Positions 21,008 through 38,740 of a stretch of 64,000 nt of DNA are shown here, piece by piece. Numbering within the stretch: position 1 is the first letter of the stretch; every line of letters begins with the position of its first letter. Below the pieces are notes generated by a model, which was not told the DNA's origin, did not search any database, and saw nothing but the letters and a program-made list of their open reading frames with translations. Source of the DNA: Fibrobacter sp. UWB11 (GTDB lineage Bacteria > Fibrobacterota > Fibrobacteria > Fibrobacterales > Fibrobacteraceae); contig NZ_FSRT01000002.1 in NCBI RefSeq assembly GCF_900143015.1, positions 372,001 to 436,000 on the forward strand, in the 5' to 3' direction. The position numbers and the translations under genes are program-made.

Positions 21008-21091
21008 TTACCCGTATATGAAGCCCAAAGCGACAGCGACGACAAAGAAGAAAGCGATTTGCTTTACTACTACCAACTCGTTTTTATTCAT
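21008..21091 (-). CDS. 27-residue single-span membrane peptide overlapping the CE6 gene (copy 1)
   Basis: A tiny gene whose ATG (21091) lies inside the last codons of the CE6 gene: the two overlap by 8 bp. AGGTGGT lies before the ATG. The peptide starts M-N-K-N-E-L, has V-V-K-Q-I-A, then a hydrophobic span of about 16 residues ending G-F-I-Y-G. A second copy at 22,931 after the other CE6 gene agrees at about three quarters of positions and differs mainly by conservative changes, and the overlap geometry is identical. That conservation is the main evidence that it is translated. The likely location is the inner membrane with a short cytoplasmic N-terminus. Function unknown; coupling to the esterase mRNA hints at a role in its export or in membrane quality control. 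Confidence 0.65.
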   Translation of the reverse strand: MNKNELVVVKQIAFFFVVAVALGFIYG

Positions 21092-22930: not shown

Positions 22931-23014
22931 TTACCCGTACACGAGGCCTAGAGCCACTGCGACGACTACGAAAAACGCAATCTGTTTTACAACAGCCAAA
23001 TCTTTGCTATTCAT
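22931..23014 (-). CDS. 27-residue single-span membrane peptide overlapping the CE6 gene (copy 2)
   Basis: The ATG at 23014 overlaps the last codons of the CE6 gene at 23,007 by 8 bp, the same geometry as copy 1. The peptide begins M-N-S-K-D-L-A-V-V-K-Q-I-A and continues with a hydrophobic helix ending A-L-G-L-V-Y-G. Length and charge layout are the same as copy 1. A strong terminator lies 20 nt after the stop codon, so the mRNA ends with this peptide. Substitutions between the copies (I/V, F/V, L/F) are conservative, as expected for a protein under selection. Function unknown. Confidence 0.65.
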   Translation of the reverse strand: MNSKDLAVVKQIAFFVVVAVALGLVYG

Positions 23015-26922: not shown

Positions 26923-26954
26923 AAAAAAGCCCCCAAACCGTTAGGTTTGGAGGC
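26923..26954 (-). terminator. Terminator after the 43-residue peptide gene
   Basis: Stem GCCCCCAAACC (26929-26939) with GGTTTGGAGGC (26944-26954), one mismatch, then T6 on the minus strand. Confidence 0.85.
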
Positions 26955-26974
26955 CATTTTTATTAGACTAGAGT

Positions 26975-27106
26975 CTATCCCAAGACATCGCCAAATGATG
27001 GAGGATCCGACGGCGAAGCTTCCAACAGATGGCCCTGATGCTTGAGTTCAACCACTTTCACTGTAGGGGTTGAGTATTCTTTTTTCTGTTCGGTTTCGTT
27101 TTTCAT
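26975..27106 (-). CDS. 43-residue peptide with Tyr-x-x-Pro-x-Val-Lys-Val-Val-Glu-Leu motif
   Basis: A short gene 27 nt after the stop codon of the beta-helix surface protein and before a strong terminator, so it is the second gene of that operon. The peptide is charged at its start (M-K-N-E-T-E-Q-K-K-E), then reads Y-S-T-P-T-V-K-V-V-E-L-K, then a Gly/Leu segment and a Pro/Ser/Asp-rich tail. Short peptides with a Y-x-x-P-x-(V/I)-x-V-x-E-L core followed by a variable tail are common in Bacteroidetes and Fibrobacter and have no settled function; some resemble leader peptides of modified peptides. No signal sequence or membrane span. The only ribosome site is a weak GGGT. Confidence 0.55.
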   Translation of the reverse strand: MKNETEQKKEYSTPTVKVVELKHQGHLLEASPSDPPSFGDVLG

Positions 27107-27133
27107 ATTTACCCATTCGTATTATTGAATGTT

Positions 27134-28942
27134 TTACTTTTTCAAATAAACGCCCTTGGCCATGTGGCTTGCATCGCGGACAGAACGGCCCTTCAGGTCG
27201 TAAGTCTGCTTCGTATGGTTCAGGCGGATTTCTCCGGTGCGGCTGTTGAACTGGCCAATAACCGTCGTCTGTTCCTCGCCATCCTTTTTGCGGTCAACCA
27301 CAACAACGTTCATCGTTTCCGGAATGTCGTTGTCGATAGATGCAGTCTGGCGCAAGACATAGGCACCGTTCGAGTTAACCGATTGCGGTACCGGACTCTT
27401 GTAGATATAGGCGCGGAGTGGCTTGATGAAGGCGCCTTCGCCCACCTTGACAAACTGGCCAACCGAGATGTCAGACGTGGCGGTACCCGCAAAGCCATAG
27501 GCCGCAGCCTTGTTCGTACCCAACACTTCCGGACTGTTGGCATCCCAGGTTTTGCCTTGGACAACGCCACGGAATACATAATTACCATACTTATTGTAAT
27601 CATCAGACTGCATTACATCAAAATCACCATCCTCTGTCGGAGTCGCCTTAAGAACAAGGTCAGTCGTTTTATTGATTACAATGTTCGTTGCTTGGGATTT
27701 GAGCTTGATTAAATACGGCTTGTACGCTTCCATCGTATATGATACACTTAACCAAATACTGCGCCAAACAAGTTCCACAGCCACATACTTATTATTACTT
27801 TTATCAACGCCTATGCCGAGGAACTTGAAGACCAGATCTAAATTCTCGATTTCTTCAGCCTTGATTTCGAACGGGAACATAATAGTGGAATAATTATTTC
27901 CCCCTACGACAACAGGGAACGTACGTTTAAAAATAATCGTGTCAACAACCGTATCCTTCGCAAAGTTCACAGCTTCATTGCCGCTATAATCGCCGTCAAT
28001 AATACCAATAGTCTTGCTACCAGGAGTTACAATTTCGACAGCTTTTGCTGGGCGCATGAAAGGATTTTCTTCAATACTTCCTTCTACATCATCGACGGTA
28101 ACAGTACCGACAAGTCCATCAGATCCTCCAATGCTATAAGGAGCTTTCTTTCCCTTTATTGCTATAACTTTAGCAACATCTTTTGTAATTGTAACTTTTC
28201 CACAGGACCCACTGTTTCCACAGCCAATGCCGGCAGCACCTTTACCTCCCATTCCCGGCATCTCATCACCTCCCATTGCTATAATTTTACCGCCACTGAT
28301 AGTTATATCGCCACACCCCGATTCTTCATAACCGCCACCGCCAATGCCAGCTGCATATAGACCACCAGCGGCGGTAATTTCACCACCTTCGATAGAGATA
28401 TTGCCTCCATGAGCATCCATGCTAGAGCCAATGCCGGCCGCAGTGAAACCACCCGTTGCTTTAATTACACCACTTTTGATAACTATATGGCCACAATTTG
28501 TATAACGGTTACAGCCGATACCAGCTCCATAACCATTGCTACTTGCTTCAAGGGAACCATCACCCTCAATTGTCATCGTATATTTTTGGCCATTTCTATC
28601 ATCTGGCACCTGGACGCCCGGGAAATTACGATCATACCCCTTCATGATATTCTTCCCCGTAAGAACGAGGGTACAGTTCCCCAGACACCTAATACCAGCC
28701 GATTCAAAACCATTATTCGCGCCAAGAACTTCAGCGTTTGAAAGCGTGATTCTAGCATTGTTGGCGACAAAAATTCTGACCTTCCTTTTAGTCCCATCAA
28801 TGGTACCATATATGACATCACCATCCTCTAGCAAAAGTGCTTCACCATCTTTAGGATAGACTGAGATATTGTATTCCGTTGCTGCAAACGTTGCTGAAGC
28901 AACAAATAATAGTGCAGAAACCACACGATATATATTTTTCAT
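27134..28942 (-). CDS. Secreted beta-helix surface protein with Gly-rich repeats and T9SS-like C-terminus
   Basis: A 602-residue exported protein with no recognised catalytic domain. AAAGGAA precedes the ATG at 28942; the signal peptide ends near A20. Residues 60-290 contain repeats of the form G-x-I-x-I-x-G-G-x-I-x-A-x-G-G-x-x-A-A-G-I-G, as in right-handed beta-helix carbohydrate-binding proteins (Cthe_2159-like) and bacterial adhesins. Cys pairs near the helix may stabilise it. Residues 320-560 look like beta-sandwich. The end reads Y-D-L-K-G-R-S-V..K-G-V-Y-L-K, close to the type IX secretion C-terminal signal. It lacks the regulon operator although it lies inside the locus. Likely a cell-surface adhesin or carbohydrate binder. 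Confidence 0.7.
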   Translation of the reverse strand: MKNIYRVVSALLFVASATFAATEYNISVYPKDGEALLLEDGDVIYGTIDGTKRKVRIFVANNARITLSNAEVLGANNGFESAGIRCLGNCTLVLTGKNIMKGYDRNFPGVQVPDDRNGQKYTMTIEGDGSLEASSNGYGAGIGCNRYTNCGHIVIKSGVIKATGGFTAAGIGSSMDAHGGNISIEGGEITAAGGLYAAGIGGGGYEESGCGDITISGGKIIAMGGDEMPGMGGKGAAGIGCGNSGSCGKVTITKDVAKVIAIKGKKAPYSIGGSDGLVGTVTVDDVEGSIEENPFMRPAKAVEIVTPGSKTIGIIDGDYSGNEAVNFAKDTVVDTIIFKRTFPVVVGGNNYSTIMFPFEIKAEEIENLDLVFKFLGIGVDKSNNKYVAVELVWRSIWLSVSYTMEAYKPYLIKLKSQATNIVINKTTDLVLKATPTEDGDFDVMQSDDYNKYGNYVFRGVVQGKTWDANSPEVLGTNKAAAYGFAGTATSDISVGQFVKVGEGAFIKPLRAYIYKSPVPQSVNSNGAYVLRQTASIDNDIPETMNVVVVDRKKDGEEQTTVIGQFNSRTGEIRLNHTKQTYDLKGRSVRDASHMAKGVYLKK

Positions 28943-29031
28943 ATAAAATTCCTTTGTTATGAGTCGAGCATCCCTCAAAAATTACATAAATCATACATTT
29001 TTAACACGACTTCGTCAAGTTTGTTTATAAT

Positions 29032-29062
29032 AAAAAAACACCTCGGAGCACTCGCTCCGAGG
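29032..29062 (-). terminator. Terminator after the 26-residue peptide gene
   Basis: Perfect stem CCTCGGAGC (29041-29049) with GCTCCGAGG (29054-29062), then GTTTTTTT on the minus strand. Confidence 0.9.
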
Positions 29063-29112
29063 CGTAACAATGCCTTGCGGCATCATTAGGGTGTGTGGTT
29101 TAGGAGGATCTT

Positions 29113-29193
29113 TTAGATGAATACGGCTAGGGCAGCGGCTCCATAGCCAAAAACAGTTGCTAAAGCATTCTGCTTTAAACTCATAATCATCAT
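29113..29193 (-). CDS. 26-residue hydrophobic peptide with its own regulon promoter
   Basis: A tiny stand-alone gene between two terminators. The ATG at 29193 has AGGGAAG about eight bases before it; an internal ATG at 29184 would give 23 residues. The peptide starts M-M-I-M-S-L-K-Q-N-A-L-A and continues as a Gly/Ala-rich hydrophobic stretch ending A-V-F-I. The K-Q-x-A start recalls the two 27-residue peptides next to the CE6 genes. The strongest support is upstream: operator and hexamer of the hemicellulose regulon at the exact 43-nt spacing, with nothing else downstream before the terminator. So the cell spends a full regulated transcription unit on this peptide, or on the RNA that carries it. 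Confidence 0.6.
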   Translation of the reverse strand: MMIMSLKQNALATVFGYGAAALAVFI

Positions 29194-29235
29194 CCCATAA
29201 CTTCCCTTGCATGATTGCAAGATTTTCCACTTTGA

Positions 29236-29299
29236 AATTTAGATTTTCTTTTGCCAAATTCCCTATTTCTGCCATTTTTTATCATTGACATTTTGGTAA
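29236..29299 (-). promoter_or_regulatory. Regulon promoter of the 26-residue peptide gene
   Basis: Operator TTACCAAAATGTCAA (coding strand, 29285-29299), 43 nt, then TAAATT (29236-29241). The predicted leader is about 35 nt. Confidence 0.6.
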
Positions 29300-29311
29300 T
29301 GGGGCAGCGAT

Positions 29312-29344
29312 AAAAAACACCCCAGAGCTTTTGCCTTCGGGGTG
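29312..29344 (-). terminator. Terminator after the GH43 gene at 29,379
   Basis: Stem CACCCC (29318-29323) with GGGGTG (29339-29344), T6 on the minus strand. It ends just 12 nt before the next operator. Confidence 0.75.
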
Positions 29345-29378: not shown

Positions 29379-31571
29379 TTATCTAGCAACAGACGTCATG
29401 AAGGTCTTGCGGCCGTCAATGCTCTTGAGCATGTAAACGCCCTTGGTAAAGCCCGCCTCGGAGAGCGCGACTTCAGCTTTTTTACCCCTGAGATCCACCG
29501 TGCCCATGAGCTTTCCGCTCACGCTATACACGCGGAATTCGCGGGAGCCGTTCGTCTGGAACCGCACAGCGTTCCCGATACCCACCTTTTCCACATCGCC
29601 AAGAGAGAACCAGTCCACGTTCACATTGTCGCCCGTAATCACGAGACGGATTACATGAGTGCCCTTGGTAAGCTTGGCCTTACCACCTTCGAATTCCTTA
29701 TAAACGCTCCAGTCCTCGCCAGTCTGCGGAACCGTAATGGTATCGCCAATTGCCTTGCCGTCGGCCAAGAAACAGAAGCTTGCGCTTTCCATGCCTGTAG
29801 AAGCCGAGGCCTTGATGGCATAATCGCCATCTTCCGGAACTTCGACCGTGTATTCGAGCCATTCGCCAGAAGCCGTGTAGCCAATAGCCTTGCCCGAGCC
29901 GCCTTCGACAATATCAACGCCCAAATCTTCGCGGAACTTGGCATCGCCCTGGTTTTCGGAATCGTTATCGCTGTAGGAATCGACATCGCCACCGCGGCCA
30001 ACGCCCGGGATGTCATAATGTTCAGCTTCAATCTTTGCCGGGAGCGTCACAGCCTTTTCGCCATACGGTTTCTGCGGTTCCGGAGGAGTCGTGCCACTGC
30101 CTTCGAAGCCCCAAGCCTTGATAGCCATCGTGGAGTCCTTGGAACCCTTGAACACGAAGAACAACTGTTCGACAATACCCTTGAGGCCTTCGACTTCGCA
30201 GGAGTTATCGGCAAAAGAGTTCTTGCTGCCGGTATTCTTGAGCGTGCAAGTGCCAGCGAGCGTACCCGTTGCAGAGCCCGTGCGGATTTCAATCTTGTTG
30301 CCATCATCCGTGCTTGCGGCCTGAACGGTCAAGCTCGTTGCAGCCGTGCCAAAGTCAACACCCGAAACGCGAATCCAGGATTCCTTGGTAGAAAGCGGGA
30401 GCAAGAGGTGTTCTGCGACCTTGCCCGGAGCCCAGTTCGAACGGCTACGGATGCCCTTCTGCTTGGAGCTCGTCAAAGCCGGGTACCAGTCATACGGATC
30501 AAAGTTTTCAATCTGCTTCGGGCCTTCCTTCGTGAAGGTCAGTTCCTTCATCGTCCCGTCGGCATTGTAAGTAAATTCATCGACGCTCACGCTGCGGTGG
30601 AATGCCGGCACCGGATTCGGGCGGCCGTCGTCAGCAGGAATCTTTTCCAAACCGTCATAGCCGTTTGCAATGCGACGGTCATGATAAGCCACATACCAGT
30701 GCCCCTTGAATTCGGCAATGCCATGATGGTTGTTGTTGTTCGCATTGATGTTCTGGCCGCCAATGTTCGGGTTCCCCATGAAGATACCCTTATATTCGTA
30801 AGGACCCATCGGGTTCTTGGACATACCGTAAGCAATACGCAAATCGGCCGTACTGTAAGAGAGGTAATAGTTGTCTTTGTACTTGTGGATATAGGATGCT
30901 TCCATCGCTTTTGGACCGCCGATTTTCAGCTGGGTCTTGGAGCTCACATCGAAGCCCTTCATATCCTTGTTGAACTTGTAAATATTGAAGATATTATTGT
31001 TGTTATTGGCTGCCGGGCGGCTATTGCTTTCGCCACCGCCAAACGTGAAGTAGCCTTGGCCATCGTCATCGAAGAAAATTGCCGGGTCGAAGCACCAACC
31101 AATACCGTCGCAGTCCGCAAGACCGCCACCCCAGTTGTTGATGAGCTTCTTGTTGCCAGAGACAGGGTTTGTCCACGGGCCAGCAATGCTGTCGGCACCG
31201 ATGAGGCCAACGCCGCCACCACCGCCATCCGGGAATACAATGTAGAGTCTACCATCGTTCGGGTTCACCGCAATACCGGAAGCCCAAATATCGCCAATAC
31301 CGTCGACCTTGCGGGCATCGTAAATGATACCGAAGTCGGTCCAGTTCTTCATATCCTTCGTGCGGAAACCGTAAAGGGCCTTGATATTATAGCCATTGGC
31401 ATTCGATGCAGCAGGGTCATCCGAGTCGGTTATGACATAGAAATAAGTATCATCGGCAGCGGCACCCGGGTCGGCCAAGTAATGGTAAGCCGAAATCGGG
31501 TTATCGGCAAGCGCGCTCACACCAAAGCCCGCAAGCATCCCAAATACTGTTACGCTCTTAAGTAGTCTCAT
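29379..31571 (-). CDS. GH43 arabinofuranosidase-type enzyme with two CBM6-like modules (paralogue 1)
   Basis: A 730-residue secreted enzyme, first of three adjacent paralogues. AAGGAGTG precedes the ATG; the signal peptide ends near A22. The propeller (about 24-330) has base D34 in HYLADPGA, modulating Asp in CFDPAIFFDDDG and acid E224 in AMEASYIHK. A module at 345-490 has the R-S-R-S-N...W-I-R-V-S-G-V-D pattern of a CBM6 relative. A second CBM6/35-like module (500-640) and the basic C-terminal domain follow. Likely substrate: arabinosyl groups on xylan, by analogy with modular GH43 enzymes of Fibrobacter. Asn-rich loops occur near residue 195 and 270. Single-gene unit. Confidence 0.87.
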   Translation of the reverse strand: MRLLKSVTVFGMLAGFGVSALADNPISAYHYLADPGAAADDTYFYVITDSDDPAASNANGYNIKALYGFRTKDMKNWTDFGIIYDARKVDGIGDIWASGIAVNPNDGRLYIVFPDGGGGGVGLIGADSIAGPWTNPVSGNKKLINNWGGGLADCDGIGWCFDPAIFFDDDGQGYFTFGGGESNSRPAANNNNNIFNIYKFNKDMKGFDVSSKTQLKIGGPKAMEASYIHKYKDNYYLSYSTADLRIAYGMSKNPMGPYEYKGIFMGNPNIGGQNINANNNNHHGIAEFKGHWYVAYHDRRIANGYDGLEKIPADDGRPNPVPAFHRSVSVDEFTYNADGTMKELTFTKEGPKQIENFDPYDWYPALTSSKQKGIRSRSNWAPGKVAEHLLLPLSTKESWIRVSGVDFGTAATSLTVQAASTDDGNKIEIRTGSATGTLAGTCTLKNTGSKNSFADNSCEVEGLKGIVEQLFFVFKGSKDSTMAIKAWGFEGSGTTPPEPQKPYGEKAVTLPAKIEAEHYDIPGVGRGGDVDSYSDNDSENQGDAKFREDLGVDIVEGGSGKAIGYTASGEWLEYTVEVPEDGDYAIKASASTGMESASFCFLADGKAIGDTITVPQTGEDWSVYKEFEGGKAKLTKGTHVIRLVITGDNVNVDWFSLGDVEKVGIGNAVRFQTNGSREFRVYSVSGKLMGTVDLRGKKAEVALSEAGFTKGVYMLKSIDGRKTFMTSVAR

Positions 31572-38676: not shown

Positions 38677-38740
38677 AAAATATTTAAAACTTACCGCTGG
38701 GAACCTACAATGTAAACATTTGGTATGGATATTTTGTCAA
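38677..38740 (-). promoter_or_regulatory. Regulon promoter of the TIGR02147 regulator gene
   Basis: Operator TTGACAAAATATCCA (coding strand, 38726-38740), 43 nt, then TATTTT (38677-38682). The expected start point, about 38670, is almost at the ATG (38668). Confidence 0.65.

Follow-up and report, generated by a model that had tools for sequence, protein, structure and literature searches.

Several bacterial regulatory RNAs resemble parts of the locus described here. SgrS-type dual-function RNAs carry a short ORF and a pairing region in one molecule, and SroC is a sponge RNA that derives from a 3′ UTR. Small RNAs that are processed from the 3′ UTRs of mRNAs are already well known, as exemplified by OppZ and CarZ of Vibrio cholerae (PMC7398697). 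GibS is a sugar-responsive small RNA of Bacteroides thetaiotaomicron, which has no obvious homologue of Hfq or ProQ (PMC7366714). For Fibrobacter, a transcriptome study of F. succinogenes S85 reported substrate-dependent expression of GH43, CBM6 and CE6 genes, in a text that covers neither small RNAs nor promoters or motifs (PMC6204037). We found no small RNA described for Fibrobacter in the open literature that we searched.

We analysed a 64,000-nt stretch of DNA from Fibrobacter sp. UWB11 (the window; genome G000, contig C2). Other G-numbers denote comparison genomes, and the genus set comprised 80 genomes. The minus-strand unit at 29300..29031 of the window is probably the scar of a GH43-CBM6 enzyme gene that now works as a small non-coding RNA gene. 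Units of this kind, from which the coding body is gone, are present in 12 of the 80 Fibrobacter genomes, and we refer to them as gutted. The unit resembles SgrS in having a short ORF together with a pairing region, but the ORF is unconserved and comes from a dead gene. The likeness to SroC is that a site behind a deacetylase gene suggests complementarity of two 3′ UTR-type RNAs, the pairing being predicted. As with OppZ and CarZ (PMC7398697), the 3′ end of a metabolic mRNA has an intrinsic terminator preceded by a short conserved region that is unpaired. In contrast to those RNAs, the parent coding sequence is missing in 12 species, the parent promoter is retained and Hfq was not found; the small RNA is moreover predicted from sequence. 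The features in common with GibS (PMC7366714) are a long unpaired conserved region, a link to carbohydrate metabolism and no known chaperone, whereas GibS is intergenic and has its seed in the 5′ part; this is a likeness of features, and no sequence relationship is claimed. What appears to be new is a variant on the known systems, in which the parent coding sequence was deleted and its regulated promoter retained. We found no published case of this kind in the open literature, our coverage of which was partial.

Layout and predicted regulation of the unit

The genes clustered around the unit encode GH43, GH30 and CE6-like enzymes, with CBM6 modules. On the minus strand, an upstream terminator is followed by an operator, a −10 element, a 26-codon ORF and an unpaired stretch rich in C and A; a hairpin and then a strong terminator close the unit. 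The features are as follows.

29312..29344, minus strand: terminator of the upstream GH43-CBM6 gene (29379-31571), read directly as CACCCC-loop-GGGGTG plus a T-run
29278..29300, minus strand: operator-like imperfect palindrome CATTACCA-AAA-TGTCAATG..., of a type common to other cluster genes; 18 of 22 columns invariant in 12 genomes
29236..29241, minus strand: candidate −10 element TAAATT, invariant at 6 of 6 positions; its distance from the operator is 56 nt throughout the 12 gutted units
29205..29222, minus strand: small leader hairpin CUUGCA-AUCA-UGCAAG directly past the predicted transcription start, from the RNA fold
29113..29193, minus strand: 26-codon ORF MMIMSLKQNALATVFGYGAAALAVFI and its stop codon; from the ATG at 29184 on, a GH43-CBM6 signal-peptide remnant (80% identity over 20 residues with G006)
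29036..29110, minus strand: conserved 75-nt 3′ element, the proposed small RNA body (model R1: 18 genomes, E <= 1.3e-19)
29089..29107, minus strand: proposed 19-nt seed CCUCCUAAACCACACACCC, unpaired in the fold, with one identical copy in each of 18 of the 80 genomes
29065..29088, minus strand: hairpin 1 of the 3′ element, from the fold and compensatory changes
29039..29064, minus strand: intrinsic terminator hairpin, from the fold and compensatory changes, with a T-run to about 29031

The initial annotation of this region had described two terminators enclosing a regulon-type promoter, a short ORF and a strong terminator, all of which are present on the minus strand. Its leader of about 35 nt agrees with the approximately 36 nt that we computed from the candidate −10 element, which predicts a transcription start at about 29229. 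The interval that it gave (29113-29299) ended too early on the 3′ side, as the conserved part reaches about 29031. The RNA fold of the unit was far more stable than that of shuffled sequences (z −4.1), and the 3′ part alone gave a z of −6.2. The leader hairpin is lost in G076 and G079.

None of 100 shuffles contained a match to the operator TTACCAAAATGTCAATGATAAA (29278-29299), even when 3 mismatches were allowed. A looser palindrome, ATTGACA-N3-TGTCMATR, matched 26 times on the two strands of the window as compared with an expectation of 5.8 ± 2.9, and 0 of 100 shuffles reached 26. Within the window this operator stands ahead of several genes of the cluster, upstream of 7138, 14211, 22742, 26778, 31571, 34049 and 36561, and near 38733. 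Conservation of the operator, −10 element and terminator supports the assignment of 29300..29031 as a separate transcription unit with a cluster-type operator. We also considered control of the next gene by readthrough. A strong terminator intervenes and that gene is preceded by a promoter-like site of its own, which makes such control unlikely.

Origin of the short reading frame

A DNA search of related genomes revealed that the two halves of the unit stand 2.2 kb apart in G006. In that genome the matching promoter and the start MSLKQTALATVFGLGFAAPVLA belong to a GH43-CBM6 enzyme of 726 residues that carries a signal peptide; its start region MSLKQ.ALATVFG is common to the window ORF, and the 26-residue ORF is 80% identical to the start of the enzyme over 20 residues. 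The 3′ half of the window unit corresponds to the 3′ UTR and terminator of the same G006 gene. The ORF is thus almost certainly the signal-peptide start of a deleted GH43-CBM6 enzyme, which after the deletion runs into a stop codon. The gene-bearing arrangement was found in 6 of the 80 genomes (G006, G038, G064 and G067, plus G062 and G071, in which the contigs end before the 5′ end of the gene).

The gutted units differ in what was left behind. The signal peptide was kept in G000, G077 and G084, and everything from there until just past the stop codon was lost. In G076 the signal peptide survives at its end only, together with roughly the final 13 codons; in G079 it is gone and just the last few codons persist. 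The remaining gutted units contain decayed traces of the gene. All of these scar types retain the promoter and the 3′ element. G076 and G079 are sisters in the gene tree (support 98), the backbone of which is weakly supported; since their scars may reflect one event with later trimming, at least 2 deletions are needed and not necessarily more. The alternative history, in which an older short unit acquired the gene by insertion, was rejected as the main story: the gutted units hold fragments of both gene ends, and the outgroups, in which the gene and the element occur together, also oppose it.

Exchange between genomes has probably affected some of these loci. A 2.4-kb block at 26923-29302, comprising the unit and an adjacent beta-helix gene, is 94.7% identical to G084, as compared with 86% in the upstream flank; it begins at one operator box and ends near the next. 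This block is common to G000, G084 and G077, and it looks as if it was swapped between species. The allele types also depart from the tree in places, with a G004-like unit in G056, and this mismatch points to exchange. As the 12 gutted loci are related and some of them carry an exchanged block, they do not constitute 12 independent cases.

Conserved and drifting parts of the unit

We compared conservation along the gutted units; a pooled alignment with the outgroups was poor (the G035 row was wrongly cut) and was left out of these counts. Mean pairwise identity among the 12 units was 0.96 for the operator and 0.98 for the 3′ 27 nt. The remnant region between the operator and the 3′ element averaged 0.60, and the 4-fold sites of a neighbouring gene, which served as the comparison level, 0.65. 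Invariant columns gave the same picture: besides the operator and the −10 element, all 19 seed columns were invariant, as compared with 4 of 37 between the operator and the −10 element and 3 of 94 between the start of the ORF and the 3′ element. As 19% of the neighbouring 4-fold sites were invariant, the chance of 19 invariant seed columns would be about 3e-14 if sites were independent. As a control, the 3′ UTR of a neighbouring GH43 paralog in 16 of the same genomes had 1 invariant column in 141 and an identity of 0.60. The combination of a drifting remnant with a frozen operator, −10 element and 3′ element argues for selection on the promoter and on the RNA end, and we consider it very likely that these, and not the peptide, are what it acts on.

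That the unit arose by deletion is plain, which raises the possibility that it is non-functional, the enzyme gene having been lost and the rest being in decay, with the similarity between species reflecting recent common descent and block exchange. The high identity of the block in G000, G084 and G077 relative to its upstream flank fits such decay. It would not be expected, however, to leave the operator, the −10 element, their 56-nt spacing and the 19-mer unchanged among species that differ at about 35% of their 4-fold sites, and in which the sequence between the conserved elements has drifted and the neighbouring 3′ UTR has drifted fully. We regard simple decay as unlikely.

The initial annotation had proposed a regulated unit that makes a secreted or membrane peptide. 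The regulated unit stood up to comparison, but the functional 26-residue peptide did not. The ORF is intact and identical in G000, G077 and G084 and has a ribosome site inherited from the enzyme gene, both of which would suit a small membrane or secreted peptide. These three are the only intact frames among the 12 gutted units, and all three sit on the recently exchanged 2.4-kb block, which explains their identity. The frame is broken in the other 9 units and is absent in G079, the ORF is homologous to the enzyme signal peptide, and the near absence of invariant columns between the ORF start and the 3′ element argues in the same direction. A functional peptide is therefore very improbable. The annotation had itself named conservation of RNA structure without conservation of the frame as the pattern that would speak against a peptide, and this pattern was found in the sister species. 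Its further suggestion of a dual-function RNA induced with hemicellulases survives as a non-coding option, but not as a dual-function one, as the ORF is intact in just 3 of the 12 units.

A kinship of the ORF with peptides linked to CE6 genes had also been suggested, and we found no match between the two sets. The CE6-linked peptides belong to a separate 27-residue family, VVKQIAFF..VAVALG..YG. In the window, two hydrophobic 27-residue peptides, MNSKDLAVVKQIAFFVVVAVALGLVYG and MNKNELVVVKQIAFFFVVAVALGFIYG, are encoded at 22931-23014 and 21008-21091 on the minus strand, directly 3′ of CE6-like esterase-CBM6 genes. At several other Fibrobacter loci (L029, L054, L066, L181, L182 and L184) there are homologs that also have exactly 27 residues, and by this sequence conservation the CE6-linked peptides are a conserved family of predicted small membrane peptides.

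The 75-nt 3′ element begins with 22 unpaired nt at its 5′ end, followed by a hairpin of 10 pairs and a terminator stem of 11 pairs. Among 16 distinct sequences, pairing was maintained in 97.9% of cells as compared with 36-50% in slid controls. Both sides had changed in 6 of 21 pairs, and none of 500 shuffles was as good; 2 of these pairs are in the first hairpin, and covariation in the terminator is expected anyway. Each of 18 genomes contains one mismatch-free copy of CCUCCUAAACCACACACCC, the sole near copy being a two-mismatch site in G056, and the named database records with this sequence are from Fibrobacter, several of them labelled F. succinogenes. Weaker model matches outside GH43 3′ UTRs, considered as extra copies of the element, were terminator hairpins only. 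A search of Rfam identified no family above the gathering threshold, the best being RsaF with 20.3 bits against a cut-off of 60. In more distant species a related motif, CCCUAAAC(AC)CACACAUCC, followed by a hairpin and a terminator, is located 8-35 nt past GH43 stop codons, sometimes behind two GH43 paralogs of one cluster. This placement indicates that the element predates the deletion. Judged by its position and sequence, the 3′ element is an inherited GH43 3′ UTR module that has outlived its coding sequence in 12 species.

The position of the element, always 8-35 nt past GH43 stop codons in the gene-bearing species as well as in the outgroups, would also be expected if it acted in cis by stabilising or terminating the enzyme mRNA or by binding an RNA-binding protein, in which case the gutted transcript would be a protein decoy or idle. 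C/A-rich unpaired 3′ UTRs are, moreover, common behind Fibrobacter CAZyme genes. The 12 gutted units nevertheless retain the element and the promoter with nothing left to stabilise, and exact identity over 19 nt goes beyond what C-richness or termination needs. We consider a purely cis-acting role improbable, and a working trans-acting small RNA likely.

A proposed small RNA and its candidate partner

In the model that we favour, in which the scar now serves as a small RNA gene, the cluster regulator would drive transcription of roughly 200 nt from the gutted unit (roughly 110 nt in G079), and the product may be trimmed down to the stable 3′ part. The unpaired CCUCCUAAACCACACACCC region would then base-pair with other RNAs. 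In gene-bearing relatives the same RNA would arise from the 3′ UTR of the enzyme mRNA, and deletion of the coding body would have turned a 3′ UTR-derived small RNA into a stand-alone, regulon-controlled gene. Two characteristics of 3′ UTR-derived small RNAs, an unpaired conserved region and an intrinsic terminator, are present. A third, location in a 3′ UTR, is seen in the six gene-bearing genomes and in outgroup GH43 genes, the host gene being deleted in the window. Hfq (PF17209) was not found in G000, and 5 control genomes were positive in the same search.

We searched six carriers for the complement of the seed (13 bases, one mismatch allowed). One site was common to 5 of the 6. It belongs to the gene of a secreted CE4-type polysaccharide deacetylase and lies between the stop codon, which it follows by 10-11 nt in every case, and the terminator. 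The site, GUGGUUUAGGGA, is present in the deacetylase 3′ UTR of 13 carriers, with one base changed in G079, and is missing from G076 and from the outgroup genomes examined. The candidate partner sequence GUGGUUUAGG in this 3′ UTR would form 10-12 contiguous pairs with the seed, with a predicted energy of −18.5 to −20 kcal/mol in three genomes and −12 in G079; pairing energy alone is unexceptional, as 65 of 21322 36-mers of the window were equally good. The deacetylase 3′ UTR is thus a lead, from carriers that form one related group, and its role as the partner is possible, if rather doubtful. In G004 (L195) the deacetylase 3′ UTR differs, but the site persists nearby: some 250 nt downstream of the CE4 gene it follows a second, truncated copy of the deacetylase, and this is possibly a second instance of a 3′ UTR outliving its gene.

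Targets of other kinds were also considered. A duplex scan of the window yielded no convincing start-site target. An anti-Shine-Dalgarno role through CCUCCU was rejected: the pattern GGTTTAGGAGG-ATG matched just the antisense of the unit itself and one site in G081, and the outgroup versions (UCCCUAAAC) lack CCUCC, indicating that such a role is not ancestral. A more far-reaching proposal, which we put forward tentatively and hold to be doubtful as a whole, is that the small RNA gene was born more than once by deletion of the coding body, which joined the regulated promoter of the enzyme to its 3′ UTR, and that the seed and the deacetylase 3′ UTR form a conserved pair of two 3′ UTRs that links two branches of hemicellulose breakdown in a bacterium without a recognisable Hfq.

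The birth of new small RNA genes is difficult to observe while it is under way. The genus examined here contains all of the stages, namely a gene with a 3′ UTR element, a partly deleted body, and a bare promoter with the 3′ UTR, and the RNA part is frozen as the protein part drifts. Fibrobacter is a main degrader of fibre in the rumen. If the unit is transcribed, its product would be the first small RNA described for Fibrobacter, as far as open papers show, and it would demonstrate that a regulatory RNA can stay in service after its enzyme is lost.
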